Shown here piece after piece: positions 25,733 to 33,501 of a stretch of 64,000 nucleotides of DNA. A program made the position numbers and the translations under genes. The number at the start of each line of letters is the position of its first letter. The first letter of the stretch is position 1. The notes beneath the pieces were generated by a model. It saw only the letters and a program-made list of their open reading frames with translations. It did no database searches and was not told where the DNA came from. The stretch is from Candidatus Nitrospira neomarina (GTDB taxonomy: Bacteria > Nitrospirota > Nitrospiria > Nitrospirales > UBA8639), in the NCBI RefSeq assembly GCF_032051675.1, contig NZ_CP116968.1, positions 2,852,001 to 2,916,000 of the forward strand. Reading direction: 5' to 3'.

Positions 25733-27313
25733 TTACGGCTTCTCCTTCATGAGCTTATACTCAATACTGTCGGCCAGGGCCTGCCAACTGGCTTCAATGA
25801 TGTTCTCCGATACCCCGACCGTCCCCCATTTTTCCTTGTGATCCCCAGACTCAATCAGGACTCGCACACGAGAACCCGTTCCATGTCGTCCGGTCAACAC
25901 ACGGACCTTATAGTCCAGAAGTTTGACTTCCTTTAACTGCGGATAGAAATGCTCCAGCGCTTTCCGAAGGGCATGATCGAGCGCATTCACCGGCCCATCC
26001 CCGACCGCGGCGGTATGTTCAACCACTTCCCCGACTTTGACCATGATCGTGGCTTCGGAAATAGGATTTTCATTCGTCTTTCGTTTTTCCACAATGATCC
26101 GGCACCCCAGGAATTCGAAGGAGGGAGTATGGGTTCCCATGGCTTTCCGCACTAACAATTCAAAAGACCCTTCTGCGCCTTCAAATTGATATCCTTCATA
26201 TTCCAACGTTTTGAGAGAATCCAGTAATTCGAGAACCTTGGGATTATCCTGAGGAAGGTCCAGTCCGAAAGTTTCCATCTTTCCAAACACGGCACTTCGT
26301 CCGCTGCTATCGGAAATTAAGACGCGGCGATGGTTGCCGACAATATCGGGATTCACATGTTCATAGGTGAGCGGGTTTTTTTGCACCGCATGAATATGCA
26401 CCCCCCCCTTATGAGCAAACGCGGTATCTCCCACATACGGCTGCCGTTTGTTGGGAGTCAGATTGGCCATCTCGGCCACATAATGAGAAATGGCGCGAAG
26501 GTGTGCCAAACGTCCGTCCCCCAGGGCTGTTCGCTCCATTTTTAATTCTAAATTGGCCATCACGGAGCACAGGTTGGCGTTCCCGCACCGCTCTCCGATG
26601 CCATTGATGGTTCCCTGGACCTGGACCGCTCCCGCTTGCACAGCAGTCAAGGAATTGGCGACCCCCATCTCCGCATCATTGTGTGCGTGAATGCCCATGG
26701 GCACAGAACAGCTCTGGCGAACCTTCGCAAAAATCTCACCAATGTCCCATGGCATCGTTCCCCCATTCGTATCGCACAACACGATTCGTTCCGCCCCGGC
26801 TTCTGCTGCAACTTGAATGGTTTTCATGGCATAGGCGGGATCCGTCTTATAGCCATCGAAAAAATGTTCGGCATCGTAAAAGACCTGCCGTCCCCTCGAC
26901 CGGAGATAAGAGATGGAATCGGCAATCAGTTCTAAATTGATTGCCAACGTCGTTTCCAAGGCTTCCGTCACATGGAGGGTCCAACTTTTTCCAAAGATGG
27001 TCACAATATCCGTCTCAGCGGATAAGAGGGCTTCCAGCGTCGGATCGGCCTTTGCCGTATTTTTGGCTTTTCGCGTCGAACCAAACGCCACAATTTTGGC
27101 GTGCTGCAACGGAGTCGATTTCATGACTTGGAAAAACTCAATGTCCTTCGGGTTGGCTCCCGGCCACCCTCCTTCTATGAAATGGACCCCTAGCTCATCT
27201 AATTTAAGAGCGATACGAACCTTATCCTCCACCGAAAAGCTGACATCTTCGGCCTGAGCTCCATCCCTGAGGGTCGTATCGTAGATTTCGATGACCGGAA
27301 ATTTGGAATTCAT
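25733..27313 (-). CDS. cimA: (R)-citramalate synthase CimA
   Basis: About 526 residues from ATG 27313; ATG 27322 and GTG 27343 are alternatives. The HMGL-like TIM barrel begins IEIYDTTLRDGAQAEDVSFS with the catalytic DTTLRDG motif; HAHNDAEMGVANS supplies the metal-binding His pair near 200, and the LeuA dimer regulatory domain is at ~385-525. CimA condenses pyruvate and acetyl-CoA to citramalate, giving 2-oxobutyrate for isoleucine without threonine deaminase. The long, LeuA-like form with EGGWPGANPKD near the start fits the CimA rather than the 2-isopropylmalate synthase clade. It follows lysC by ~40 bases. Confidence 0.9.
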   Translation of the reverse strand: MNSKFPVIEIYDTTLRDGAQAEDVSFSVEDKVRIALKLDELGVHFIEGGWPGANPKDIEFFQVMKSTPLQHAKIVAFGSTRKAKNTAKADPTLEALLSAETDIVTIFGKSWTLHVTEALETTLAINLELIADSISYLRSRGRQVFYDAEHFFDGYKTDPAYAMKTIQVAAEAGAERIVLCDTNGGTMPWDIGEIFAKVRQSCSVPMGIHAHNDAEMGVANSLTAVQAGAVQVQGTINGIGERCGNANLCSVMANLELKMERTALGDGRLAHLRAISHYVAEMANLTPNKRQPYVGDTAFAHKGGVHIHAVQKNPLTYEHVNPDIVGNHRRVLISDSSGRSAVFGKMETFGLDLPQDNPKVLELLDSLKTLEYEGYQFEGAEGSFELLVRKAMGTHTPSFEFLGCRIIVEKRKTNENPISEATIMVKVGEVVEHTAAVGDGPVNALDHALRKALEHFYPQLKEVKLLDYKVRVLTGRHGTGSRVRVLIESGDHKEKWGTVGVSENIIEASWQALADSIEYKLMKEKP

Positions 27314-27354
27314 ATCACCCATTCGCCCCTTCGATGTCGACACACAATCCCACG

Positions 27355-28590
27355 CTAGGCCTTTCTGCTCCCCGGAGGTACTTCTAATTCAAACTCCTGG
27401 TGCAAGGCCCGAACAGCTAACTCCATATATTTTTCTTCTACCACACAAGAGATTTTTATTTCCGAGGTACTGATCATCATGATATTAATGCCTTCACGGG
27501 AGAGTGTCTGAAACATTCTGGCTGCGACACCGGAATGCGAACGCATTCCCACTCCCACTAGCGAAACTTTGGCAATGGATTCGTTCACCTCGACCGTCCG
27601 CGCTTCCACTGATTTGGCAATATCTCTGATGAGACCCATGCCTCGAGGAAGGTCAGCTCTCGGCACGGTAAAGGAAATATCCGTCAGGGAGTCCTGACTC
27701 ACATTTTGTATTATCATATCCACATTGATGGCGGCATCGGCAATGGAGCAGAACAATGTGGCCGCAATTCCAGGGTGATCGGGGACCCCGACCACCGTGA
27801 CCTTGGCTTGATTCCGGTCGCCCGTAACCCCCGAGACTAAGACTTCTTCCATATCGACATCCTCTTTTACCACGCAGGTTCCAGGCCCGTCCTGAAAACT
27901 GGACCGCACTTCTACAGGTACCTGATATTTCGCCGCTAACTCCACCGAACGAGACTGTAGAACTTTCGCACCCAGACTCGCTAACTCTAACATTTCTTCA
28001 TAGGAGATTTTATCCAATCTTCTCGCGCCCGGCACAATATTGGGATCGGCCGTGTACACCCCATCCACATCGGTATAAATAAAGCAGGTATCGGCCTTGA
28101 GCGCCGCCGCCAAGACCACGGCCGTCAAATCCGAGCCGCCGCGCCCTAATGTGGTCACATCGGATGCGGCGTTGATACCCTGAAATCCGGCCACGATGGG
28201 AACAATCCCGTCACGCAAGGCTCCCAGCACCCGGTCCGTATCGACACGGGAGACTCGGGCTTTGGTATGTGTGCTATCGGTCACAATCCCAACCTGACGT
28301 CCCGTAAAGGATTGCGCCCTGATCCCAAGACCCTTGAGGGTCATCGCCATCAGCGCAATCGTGACCCGTTCTCCAGAAGAAAGGAGCACATCCAGCTCCC
28401 GATCATCCGGATCAACGCTCAAGGTTTTGGCCATTTTCATGAGGCGATCCGTTTCCCCGCTCATCGCGGACAACACGACCACCAGTTGATGCCCCTCTCG
28501 GAAAGTGTGCTGAATAAGCCGGGCCACGTTTTGAATTCGTTCCAGGCTCCCCACTGATGTACCGCCGAATTTTTGAATATATAGGGCCAT
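27355..28590 (-). CDS. lysC: Aspartate kinase
   Basis: 411 residues from ATG 28590 ([15 protein letters not shown]). Kinase domain with KFGGTSVG at the start, [11 protein letters not shown] near 70 and [16 protein letters not shown] near 150; two ACT domains at ~265-405 provide feedback control by lysine and/or threonine ([26 protein letters not shown]). It phosphorylates aspartate, the entry to lysine, threonine and methionine synthesis. It begins four bases after the stop of the phosphoglycerate-mutase-like gene, so the two are coupled. An earlier in-frame start would overlap that gene and is unlikely. Confidence 0.95.
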
Positions 28591-28594
28591 GGTT

Positions 28595-29830
28595 TTAGTG
28601 AGTGGCCATAAATCGCTCAAACAGTTTGGTAGCATCACGGAGGGGGCGATTGGCGACCTCACGTTCATTCATTGGTCCCGCATGATTTTCAGATTTCTCC
28701 CCTGGCCCTTCAAACACCAGATAAGGCGATATGAAAGACCCTCCATCCTTCTGCCAATTCGGACATGGAGTCACTATAACAACGATGCGGATGGAGTTGG
28801 TGCTTCCAACAGACGCATGAATGGCTCCAATGACCTGTTCGTCCACTTGCCCAAGATATTCCACTAATTGTGCGGGTGGCACCACCTGTCCATTCTTCAA
28901 GCCCCACTCGTAAAAAGGAATGTGCAGACAGACCAGGTCATGCCTGTCCAAGGCCGTCGAAGCCTGATTAGCTACCGCCTGCAACCATTCGATATCTCCC
29001 CCTCCCACATGTTCGACCTTGACCGTCTGAAGTCCAGCGGCCATTCCAACACCGATATACGGCCCATCGGGGGAAATCACGAGACCGTTGACTGGCCACC
29101 GCTCCTGTAAATGAGGCAATTCCACAGGCTTTCCTGACCCCCACAACCACAGACAATTGGCCGGTTTCAAGCCGGCACTCAGGCGCTCGTGATTCACAGG
29201 ATGATGGCAGAGGATCACCCGGGACGCCGCCATGAGTTCACGTAAGATGTGCGATCCATCTCCGGTCGGCAGATACGCCTCGATCGATTGTCCTAAAGCC
29301 TCATATGGGTTGCGACAGGCCACTTTCCCGCTTGCGCCCACCCAGACCATAAGGTGACGATGATGGCTGCCCATGTAAAATTGAATATTTTCAGAAATCA
29401 ATTGTTCATTAACGGCATCAATGAGTTCTCGGGCCTCCTCAGTCCCGATTCCTCCGCCATAGGGATCGGCCATAAATAGGTGAGGACCAATTTTTTTCTC
29501 ATCCCCCCATCCATCCTGACCCCGGAGAGTCACCAAATGACAAAGATAGGCCACATCATGGGCGTCCAGAACAACCTCTAATCCCCCTGCCTCGAAAGCA
29601 CCAGCACCGGTATACCATTTATGGGGATCGTATCCCAATAAAGCCAGCAGGGCCATTTCTCCGAAAAAGGGACGAGTTTCCCGGGGAACCCCTAAGCGCC
29701 CCAATTCGCCATGCTCCGCCAATTCATCCAGGTGCGGTGTCCGAGCATATTGTAAGACGGTTTGGTCTCCTAATTCTTGATACGACTGTCCTGTCAATCC
29801 ATCGACGTGAATCACGATCGTTTTTCGCAC
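28595..29830 (-). CDS. Phosphoglycerate-mutase-like (ApgM) protein in the threonine operon
   Basis: 411 residues with the ApgM/alkaline-phosphatase scaffold: [11 protein letters not shown] and [17 protein letters not shown] at the start, [15 protein letters not shown] near 61-75. The family's phospho-acceptor motif, usually PGSD just before LSLLGYDP, reads FFGE here (55-58). The usual DEAGHDGD-like metal block is replaced by [13 protein letters not shown] near 320, and the HTSDPVP-like block by GGSFISPY. So the classical nucleophile and several ligands seem missing. It lies between thrC and lysC and starts 73 bases after thrC. ApgM-like proteins near hom/thrC have been proposed as alternative homoserine kinases; no GHMP-type thrB is in the window. 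Confidence 0.78.
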
Positions 29831-29903: not shown

Positions 29904-30965
29904 TTATTGATTCGTTAATTGCGCTCTGACCGCTTCATGTGTTGCAGGAACCGTCACCGGTCGATAGGAGACCGAGATGGCCGTATCCGGATCCTTTAAC
30001 CCGTGTCCGGTTAAGGTACACACAATGTCCCCCACCTTCGGCAACAACCCGGCACGATTCATTTTGTCAATCCCAGCCAGAGACGCAGCGGAAGCGGGCT
30101 CGCAAAAGACCCCTTCTTCACTCGCCACCATTTGATACGCTCGAAGAATTTCTTCGTCCGATACCATGTCCAGATATCCGTGTGATTCTTCCACCGCTTC
30201 CAGAGCCAAACACCAACTGGCCGGATTACCAATCCGAATGGCTGAAGCAATGGTTTTCGGCTCCTCCACGACATGACCCCTGATCAAGGGCGCGGCTCCT
30301 TCCGCTTGAAACCCGAACATACGAGGCACCCCTTGCGTTTGTCCGGCCTTGTGGTACTCCCGATATCCTCGCCAATACGCAGTAATATTCCCGGCGTTCC
30401 CTACCGGGAGGGCATGAATGACCGGGGCATACCTTAACTGATCACAGATTTCCATGGCCGCCGTTTTCTGACCCTCCAAACGAAACGGGTTAATTGAATT
30501 GACCAATTCAATGGCGGTTTCCTCGCACAAATCTTTTACGATCGTGAGGGCCTGATCAAAGTTTCCTTCAATCTGAATGACTCGAGCCCCATGCATGAGC
30601 GCTTGCGTCAATTTACCCAATGCGATATTCCCTGCCGGCACGACGACATAGACCGGCAACCCCGCCTTGGCCCCATAAGCGGCTGCCGAAGCGGAAGTAT
30701 TGCCTGTCGAGGCGCACATGAGTCCTCTGGCCTTACTTTCTACGGCCTTGGAAACCGCCATGGTCATGCCCCGGTCCTTAAATGAACCGGTTGGGTTGGC
30801 CCCTTCGATCTTCAGATACAGACCCAGGCCAGGACAAATTTTCCCGGCTAAGCGCATTGCTGGAATGAGTGGAGTATTCCCCTCCAGTAGTGACACGATC
30901 GGAGTCTGCTCTCCCACCGGAAGGAATTTCCGATATTCCTCGATAATGCCACGCCAAGGAATCAT
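29904..30965 (-). CDS. thrC: Threonine synthase
   Basis: 353 residues, the short PLP fold-II class. The PLP-binding lysine is in NPTGSFKDRGMTMAVS near 60 and the phosphate-binding loop in ALPVGNAGNITAYW near 185; ASTGNTSASAAAYGAKAG near 85-102 is the Asn-containing substrate loop. It converts O-phosphohomoserine to threonine. It follows hom by ~41 bases and precedes the phosphoglycerate-mutase-like gene, so the threonine branch is contiguous, with the kinase step as the only unassigned one. Start ATG 30965 with GGGGGA upstream. Confidence 0.95.
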   Translation of the reverse strand: MIPWRGIIEEYRKFLPVGEQTPIVSLLEGNTPLIPAMRLAGKICPGLGLYLKIEGANPTGSFKDRGMTMAVSKAVESKARGLMCASTGNTSASAAAYGAKAGLPVYVVVPAGNIALGKLTQALMHGARVIQIEGNFDQALTIVKDLCEETAIELVNSINPFRLEGQKTAAMEICDQLRYAPVIHALPVGNAGNITAYWRGYREYHKAGQTQGVPRMFGFQAEGAAPLIRGHVVEEPKTIASAIRIGNPASWCLALEAVEESHGYLDMVSDEEILRAYQMVASEEGVFCEPASAASLAGIDKMNRAGLLPKVGDIVCTLTGHGLKDPDTAISVSYRPVTVPATHEAVRAQLTNQ

Positions 30966-31006: not shown

Positions 31007-32317
31007 TTATTCCACCCCTTCCATCCGAAGTAACGTCGTTGGTTCTGATACCATAGGAAGCGCATTAATTTCCTGGAGTGCCTCTTGAACCGCTCGCTCT
31101 ACCGATCGATGTGTCAGGATGACCAATGGCACCGTTTGTCCTTCCTTTCGCCCTTTTTGCAGGACAGATGAGATGCTGATCCCACGCTGTCCAAGAATTC
31201 CCGATATGGCCGATAGAACGCCGGTTTGATCTTTAACCATGCACCGCAAATAATACCGGCTTTCAATCTCGTCCATCGGCCGTATGGCAATAGGCTCACG
31301 CGATTCCCATTGGAATGAGGTCACAGGAACCCGTCCGGCAACCCCGGCGATACGATTGCGTGCCAGATCGATAATGTCTCCCACCACGGCACTGGCTGTG
31401 GGAAGCGATCCAGCCCCTTTGCCGTAGAGCACAACATCTCCAACCGCGTCACCAACCAGATGAATGGCATTATAGACCCCATTGACCTGTGCAATGGGAG
31501 ATCCGGCCGGCACCAGAGCGGGATGCACTCGTGCCTCAATGGCATGCTCTTGAAGTTTTGCGATCCCCAGCAATTTAATGGTAAACCCGAGTTCACGGGC
31601 AAACTCGATATCCACAGTCGAAATACGGGAAATTCCCTCAGTGAAGATGGCTCCCATGGGCACGGGGGTCCCATACGCCAGATTCACCATAATAGCCAGT
31701 TTGTGAGCGGCATCCACTCCATCAACATCCAGTGATGGATCCGCTTCGGCATACCCTTCCCGTTTGGCTTCCTGTAAAATTTCCTCAAAATCACGGTGCT
31801 CATTGGTCATCCGGGTCAGAATATAATTTGACGTGCCATTCATGATCCCCGTAATCGACAAGATCCGATTTGCAGCTAAGCCTTCGGTAAGCGAGCGAAT
31901 GATGGGAATGCCTCCCCCCACACTCGCTTCAAACCCGAGATCAACGCCTGCCTTAAATGCCGCCTCGAATATCTCTTCCCCATGGTCGGCCAACAACGCT
32001 TTATTTGCCGTGACTACACACTTTTTTCGTTCAAGGGCCTGAAGAATAAACCGTTTGGCCGGTTCATACCCGCCAATCAACTCCACCACAATATCAATAG
32101 CCAGATCATCCAGAATGTCCCTGACATCCGTCGTAAGTACCCCTTGAGGTACCGAAACCCCACGATCGGTTTTCACATCCAGGTCCGCAATTCGGACGAG
32201 GGCCACCGGAACTCCAACACGTTTCGTAATGAGGTTGACATTTTCCTGGAGAATCTTCACCACTCCTGTTCCCACCGTCCCAAACCCGATCAGCCCAACC
32301 TGGATTGTCTTTCGCAT
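31007..32317 (-). CDS. hom: Homoserine dehydrogenase
   Basis: 436 residues: Rossmann NAD(P) domain with VGLIGFGTVGTGVVKIL, catalytic domain with NKALLADHGEEIF and GIMNGTSNYILTRM, and a C-terminal ACT domain (~350-425, YYLRCMVKDQTGVLSAISGI) for threonine feedback. It reduces aspartate semialdehyde to homoserine. Its ATG at 32317 overlaps the stop of the aminotransferase gene by one base (TAATG), implying translational coupling. Confidence 0.96.
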   Translation of the reverse strand: MRKTIQVGLIGFGTVGTGVVKILQENVNLITKRVGVPVALVRIADLDVKTDRGVSVPQGVLTTDVRDILDDLAIDIVVELIGGYEPAKRFILQALERKKCVVTANKALLADHGEEIFEAAFKAGVDLGFEASVGGGIPIIRSLTEGLAANRILSITGIMNGTSNYILTRMTNEHRDFEEILQEAKREGYAEADPSLDVDGVDAAHKLAIMVNLAYGTPVPMGAIFTEGISRISTVDIEFARELGFTIKLLGIAKLQEHAIEARVHPALVPAGSPIAQVNGVYNAIHLVGDAVGDVVLYGKGAGSLPTASAVVGDIIDLARNRIAGVAGRVPVTSFQWESREPIAIRPMDEIESRYYLRCMVKDQTGVLSAISGILGQRGISISSVLQKGRKEGQTVPLVILTHRSVERAVQEALQEINALPMVSEPTTLLRMEGVE

Positions 32318-33501
32318 TACACCGCTCCATCCAGTTTTAACGCCTGACGGATTCCTCGAACGGCCTGGAAAATCCGGTGCTCATTTTCGACTAAGGCAAA
32401 GCGAACATACTCATCGCCGCCTTCGCCAAATCCAATTCCCGGTGATACCGCCACTTTGGCATCTCGTAACAATAACTTGGAAAACTCCAACGACCCCATT
32501 CCAAGGTACGGTTGCGGGATTTTTGCCCAGGCAAACATGGTGGCGCGAGGATAGTCGATCGACCAACCAATGCGGTTGAGTCCACGGACCAAGGCATTGC
32601 GCCGTCGCTCATACCGTCCCACAATTTCCTTTACGCAATCCTGTGGACCGTTCAGGGCAATTATACTGGCAATTTGAATAGGCTGGAACATCCCATAATC
32701 CAGATAACTTTTGATTTTGGTCAACGCACCAATGACTTCACGATTCCCGACACAAAATCCAACACGCCAACCCGGCATGTTATAACTCTTCGAGAGGGAG
32801 TAAAATTCCACGCCAATTTGTTTGGCCTCAGGAATTTGAAGCAGGCTGGGCGCTTTGTAACCATCAAACACGATATCCGCATAGGCCAAATCATGAATGA
32901 CCCAGACTTGATGTTCCAGGGCAAACTCCACCACCTTTTTGAAAAATTCCAGATCCACCACTCGAGTGGTGGGATTATGAGGAAAACTGATGATCAAGGC
33001 CCGAGGAGCCGGTTGCGTCTGCTTGAAGGCCTTTTTCAGATTTTCGAAAAAATCCGAATCCGGCCCTAGTTCAACCCCGCGGACTTCACCACCCGCGATG
33101 ATCACACTGTACATATGAATCGGATACGTGGGAGTCGGGGCCAGAACGACGTCACCCGGTCCCACCATGGCCAGGGCCAGATGCGCCAACCCCTCCTTCA
33201 CCCCAAGGGTCACAATCGCTTCCGTCTCCGGATCGAGACTGACCTCGTAATTTCGTTGATACCAATCGCAAATCGCATGACGCAATTTCGTAATACCGCG
33301 TGAAGCCGAATAGCGATGATTGCGCCCGAGTCGCGCGGTCTCAATCAATTTGTCTACAATATGACGGGGTGTGGGCTGGTCAGGATTGCCCATACCTAAA
33401 TCAATGATATCTTCTCCCCGCTTCCGGGCTTGGAGTTTTAACTCTTGAACCTGAGAGAAGACGTATCCTGGCAGACGTTGAATTCGGTAAAAAGGTTCCA
33501 T
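32317..33501 (-). CDS. alaC: AlaC-type PLP-dependent aminotransferase
   Basis: 394 residues, class I/II fold: [20 protein letters not shown] and [15 protein letters not shown] at the start, [14 protein letters not shown] near 175 and the PLP lysine in [15 protein letters not shown] near 235. The opening most closely matches AlaC/AlaT alanine transaminases; some relatives are LL-diaminopimelate aminotransferases, so substrate is not certain from sequence. It is the first gene of the alaC-hom-thrC-ApgM-lysC-cimA run, which ties nitrogen transfer to aspartate-family synthesis. Confidence 0.87.

Follow-up and report, generated by a model that had tools for sequence, protein, structure and literature searches.

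An eroded ortholog of the proposed homoserine kinase ThrB2 in the threonine operon of Nitrospira, a candidate ligand-binding pseudoenzyme

One gene in the threonine operon of Candidatus Nitrospira neomarina is an eroded form of TIGR02535 (ThrB2), the ApgM-like 'proposed homoserine kinase', to which it is orthologous. On balance, we think that the operon has kept its product as a ligand-binding pseudoenzyme, and that homoserine is phosphorylated by an enzyme that is not recognised as such. The gene lies in a window of 64,000 nucleotides (the whole stretch of DNA that was analysed; contig NZ_CP116968.1, positions 2,852,001 to 2,916,000). The finding points to a missing step in an essential pathway of the order Nitrospirales, to which the nitrite-oxidising and comammox Nitrospira belong: the genomes encode hom and thrC, and a described homoserine kinase was not found in those searched.

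Results

The gene order at the locus is alaC-hom-thrC-ORF-lysC-cimA, with all genes on the minus strand (Table 1). A preliminary description made from the letters of the DNA had placed the ORF in the threonine operon near hom and thrC and had remarked on a four-base coupling to lysC. The HMM-checked neighbours agree with the former, and four bases indeed separate the TAA stop of the ORF (28597-28595) from the lysC ATG. In the 80 loci compared, the order thrC-ORF-lysC was found wherever both flanks were present.

Table 1. Features of the threonine locus, in positions of the window
Feature	Position	Strand	Evidence
ApgM-like protein (the ORF), 411 aa	28595..29830	-	HMM scans, alignments, AF2 model, fold match; GTG start
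lysC, aspartate kinase	27355..28590	-	NF005155 615 bits, over cut-off; ATG at 28590
thrC, threonine synthase	29904..30965	-	TIGR00260 300 bits, cut-off 167
hom, homoserine dehydrogenase	31007..32317	-	NF004976 551 bits, cut-off 205
alaC/LL-DAP-aminotransferase-like transaminase, operon head	32317..33501	-	NF006033 643 bits, cut-off 647; synteny
cimA, citramalate synthase	25733..27343	-	TIGR00977 775 bits, cut-off 450
D10 codon, sole remaining canonical metal ligand (VDGL)	29801..29803	-	alignment; computed from ORF start 29830
FFGE, residues 55-58, aligned with the PGSD nucleophile motif	29657..29668	-	alignment; read from sequence

The likeness to phosphoglycerate mutases noted earlier was borne out by profile scores. 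The protein reached 248 bits against TIGR00306 (apgM, cut-off 320) and 238.4 bits against TIGR02535 (cut-off 446.3), below the cut-off in both cases, and even the top TIGR02535 score among matches of f1 and f2, the two main Nitrospirales families, 355 bits, stays under it. The PhosphMutase domain PF10143 passed its gathering threshold (122.9 against 21.5 bits), whereas the Metalloenzyme domain PF01676 did not (12.6 against 24.3 bits). The protein is thus related to the family, genuinely but distantly, and departs from it in the metal-binding half.

Relatives from same-phylum whole genomes, a class-wide search and named loci were aligned, and eight positions were scored (numbering of ortholog L047): D10, S57, H120, D301, H305, D345, H346 and H355. 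From established knowledge of the iPGM family, we take these to be the nucleophile, the catalytic histidine and the metal ligands. All eight are present in each of the 14 intact orthologs read from Nitrospirota; the window protein has lost seven and keeps D10. The PGSD phospho-acceptor motif has become FFGE, as described earlier, with serine replaced by Gly57 and aspartate by Glu58. The broader claim that the classical catalytic residues are gone holds for the nucleophile and the later metal blocks and fails for the first metal aspartate, and the alignments recovered none of the missing nucleophile and ligands. Around H305 the alignment is uncertain, and the window protein has a histidine there under no reading. 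Between one and five of the eight residues survive in the 119 sequences of f1 and f2, which include some species twice from two collections, and H120 and H355 are absent from all 119. Some Nitrospira, such as N. moscoviensis, retain five. The substitutes at the canonical positions vary within f1 and f2 (entropy percentile 45-84), a pattern as under relaxed constraint.

A different set of residues is retained. R158, H159, H210, R216, N225, W228, W230 and H303 occur in 114-119 of the 119 sequences and, judged by this conservation, are presumed to form a ligand pocket. Thirteen further positions are newly conserved in the clade, with a commonest residue that differs from that of the intact proteins; these include K113, Q143, Q150, H157, C226, R398, A400 and T401. 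The AF2 model of the window protein, built with 50 aligned relatives as input, had a mean pLDDT of 89.8 and a pTM of 0.91. In the comparison with ApgM that the preliminary description had proposed, the predicted fold is still that of ApgM: among solved structures ApgM 2zkt matches best (Z 36.6, rmsd 4.0, 358 residues aligned, 25% identity), and Foldseek too gave ApgM enzymes as the closest structures. Pairwise dN/dS lies at 0.06-0.19 in the ORF, and hom, thrC, lysC and cimA have about 0.02-0.12. The ORF is thus under purifying selection, less than its neighbours, and does not decay freely.

A separate phosphoglycerate mutase, GpmA, scored over cut-off in all ten f1/f2 genomes searched, that of the window among them. 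One GpmA-type gene (G000:C1:3472108-3472707) and its counterparts in nine f1/f2 genomes match the model in two adjoining blocks (2-121 and 146-228); it is apparently a short form with about 24 internal residues missing. A longer GpmA lies at C1:2686123 of the window genome.

We searched the whole window genome for GHMP-type ThrB (TIGR00191) and found no match over cut-off, the best reaching 50 bits; the absence of a nearby GHMP thrB stated earlier thus extends to the genome. The GHMP matches, heptose-kinase-like and IspE-like genes, were rejected as ThrB. The APH-type homoserine kinase TIGR00938 had no match in the window genome. An APH gene is found in 24 of 24 genomes searched; in the window genome and the two relatives read, a nucleotidyltransferase follows it, the arrangement of AmgK-MurU, so that it looks like AmgK, and it was rejected as well. 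For the Desulfovibrio-type homoserine kinase NF040667 (cut-off 197) the best score was 90.5 bits in the window genome and 136 bits at most over the 24 genomes. The shikimate-kinase-type gene beside aroE, below that cut-off and scoring higher as shikimate kinase, was not accepted as a homoserine kinase; apart from a gluconokinase, it is the one full-length member of its type in the window genome. The ADP-dependent serine kinase SerK was set aside as a candidate, since the published enzyme does not accept homoserine (PMC5120207). These searches gave no recognised homoserine kinase in the order Nitrospirales, where a new family or a bifunctional AroK could possibly carry out the step. The open-access literature yielded no paper on homoserine kinase in Nitrospira and none on a pseudoenzyme of the ApgM-like/TIGR02535 family.

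Across 148 Nitrospirota genomes, thrB exceeded its cut-off in 28. A strong ApgM-like match was found in 3 of these 28, as against 105 of the 120 genomes without thrB (Fisher p 7e-15, or 8e-13 without f1 and f2; the genomes are non-independent and the p-values descriptive). Among 246 genomes of the class, thrB was over cut-off only outside the order Nitrospirales (families f3, f4, f5, f29, f31 and f33-f36). Outside this order, genomes with thrB mostly have no ortholog or an eroded one, whereas those without thrB mostly have the ortholog. The thrB-bearing families range from an intact ortholog with 8 of 8 residues (f3) through partial erosion with 4-7 residues kept (f33) to full erosion in f4 (a single sequence read) and absence from the operon in f5 (a single genome read). 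Of the families without thrB, f30 and f32 (one sequence each) have an intact ortholog and f27 a partly eroded one, with 5-6 residues kept. The f27 orthologs (L091, L094, L096, L098 and L100), possibly an intermediate stage, show serine to glycine in 3 of 5, aspartate to asparagine in 5 of 5 and histidine to glutamine or glutamate in 5 of 5. In the tree, f1 and f2 form one clade (support 100/100) with f27 as its sister. The Nitrospirales are the exception: their ortholog is eroded or deleted, and a known homoserine kinase was not found.

Two loci stood apart. In G245 (f2), a GHMP thrB-like gene just under the cut-off (167.7 bits) adjoins a divergent thrC in a separate thrB-thrC cluster (L226, G245:C1:1340000-1351000), for which contamination and transfer are both possible. 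In the fragmented assembly G029 (f6, outside Nitrospirales), locus L081 has hom-thrC-lysC with no ApgM-like gene, and thrB was not over cut-off.

The gene is dispensable in a sister genus. In g2, which belongs to the window's own family, 0 of 15 genomes searched had a match to the ORF. The genes alaC-hom-thrC-lysC-cimA are joined without the ortholog in G081 and G065 (g2) and in G133 (g4); the G081 assembly is a single contig and 100% complete. We found no thrB in these three genomes and no convincing residual homology to the ORF in their thrC-lysC gaps. Since hom and thrC are retained and Nitrospira is cultivated in mineral medium (enrichment study, PMC13049253), own threonine synthesis is expected both in these genomes and in Nitrospira. 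The preliminary description had argued from the coupling to lysC for an essential role and had proposed that the ORF fills the thrB gap. The genome-wide lack of thrB and the anticorrelation of the family with it speak for this proposal. The loss of the gene from g2 and g4 genomes that keep hom-thrC-lysC and have no thrB speaks against an essential kinase role, and the idea that the ORF must supply homoserine kinase is not supported.

Discussion

We propose that the window protein is a pseudoenzyme orthologous to TIGR02535/ThrB2. It has retained the predicted fold, the presumed substrate pocket and the place between thrC and lysC, but has lost the alkaline-phosphatase-type two-metal centre together with the serine nucleophile. 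It may still bind homoserine, phosphohomoserine or threonine as an aspartate-family ligand, and LysC, ThrC or Hom might be regulated by it or be its partner. In Nitrospirales, homoserine would be phosphorylated by an enzyme from a family other than those searched. Such a ligand-sensing or partner role would be favoured over a relic by the retained pocket residues, by the place in the operon and by purifying selection. If intact TIGR02535 proteins are homoserine kinases, as the TIGRFam curators proposed and the anticorrelation supports, the Nitrospirales protein would be their catalytically dead descendant. The preliminary description had offered a new kinase or transferase or a regulatory pseudoenzyme; the latter fits best, and a kinase is the weaker alternative given the g2 and g4 genomes without the gene. 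Several points count against a pseudoenzyme. Its ligand and partner are putative and its pocket is predicted from conservation, five of the eight residues persist in some Nitrospira, and the dN/dS above that of the neighbours could reflect slow functional loss. Moreover, with the site eroded and no replacement kinase found, one step of the pathway is left without an enzyme; an active protein with rewired chemistry would supply it.

It is unlikely that the protein is still the homoserine phosphotransferase of the Nitrospirales, with a rewired chemistry that would need neither the serine nucleophile nor a two-metal centre. Such a role would suit a conserved operon protein under purifying selection that gained clade-specific conserved residues, in genomes where GHMP, APH-type and shikimate-kinase-type homoserine kinases were not found. 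However, g2 and g4 genomes have hom and thrC without the gene, the clade is variable at what were the catalytic positions, and erosion is also seen in the thrB-bearing f33 and f4, where a second kinase is not needed. More specifically, it seems quite improbable that the window protein evolved a different, metal-centre-independent phosphorylation of homoserine; we know of no such mechanism in the alkaline phosphatase superfamily. We likewise give only a small chance to a slowly vanishing relic that has no present function and is kept by its operon position. Relative to the neighbours its dN/dS is raised roughly 2-4-fold, and this and the disappearance of the gene from the operon in g2, g4 and the thrB-positive f5 genome read would fit a relic, but dN/dS is well below 1, the model is well folded, and the open frame and near-invariant pocket residues persist through 119 sequences of two families. 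A phosphoglycerate mutase role, raised in the preliminary description, was rejected. ApgM enzymes are the nearest solved structures, but with the nucleophile and ligands lost and GpmA encoded separately in all ten genomes, an active cofactor-independent mutase that sits in the operon by chance is extremely unlikely.

Automated annotation is probably mistaken where it calls the Nitrospira proteins phosphoglycerate mutase or homoserine kinase. The orthologs, which grade from intact through partly and fully eroded to deleted, form, when set against thrB presence, a natural experiment on whether TIGR02535 is the long-proposed alternative homoserine kinase, a question that Bacteroides genetics left open (PMC7311316).

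Among known systems, GHMP ThrB (TIGR00191) would cover the same pathway step; GHMP ThrB and ApgM-like proteins belong to unrelated fold families. The archaeal cofactor-independent phosphoglycerate mutase ApgM (PH0037, PDB 2zkt) shares its fold with the window protein over 358 residues. Unlike ApgM, the window protein has no intact active site, and its genome has the separate GpmA. PhpG (NF038358, CMP-5'-phosphonoformate--3-phosphoglycerate phosphonoformyl transferase) is the sole other ApgM-like protein found in the window genome (G000:C1:1139525; 570 bits, cut-off 545); the window protein reaches 80 bits against that model, and the genomic context differs. The PhpG locus, outside the window (L005, G000:C1:1138025-1142275), is flanked by aldehyde-dehydrogenase-like and enolase-like genes and is probably a phosphonate biosynthesis cluster. 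In Bacteroides, the ThrB2 protein BT2402 retains its zinc sites (PMC9765024). It is required for threonine-free growth and yet does not rescue E. coli thrB, and O-phosphohomoserine formation is unproven even for BT2402 (PMC7311316). With TIGR02535/ThrB2 the window protein shares the superfamily, an orthologous position in Nitrospirota and the setting among threonine-synthesis genes (hom-thrC-ORF-lysC), and the family as a whole anticorrelates with thrB. It differs from TIGR02535 in scoring under the cut-off and in the catalytic serine and metal ligands, of which one position in eight is left.
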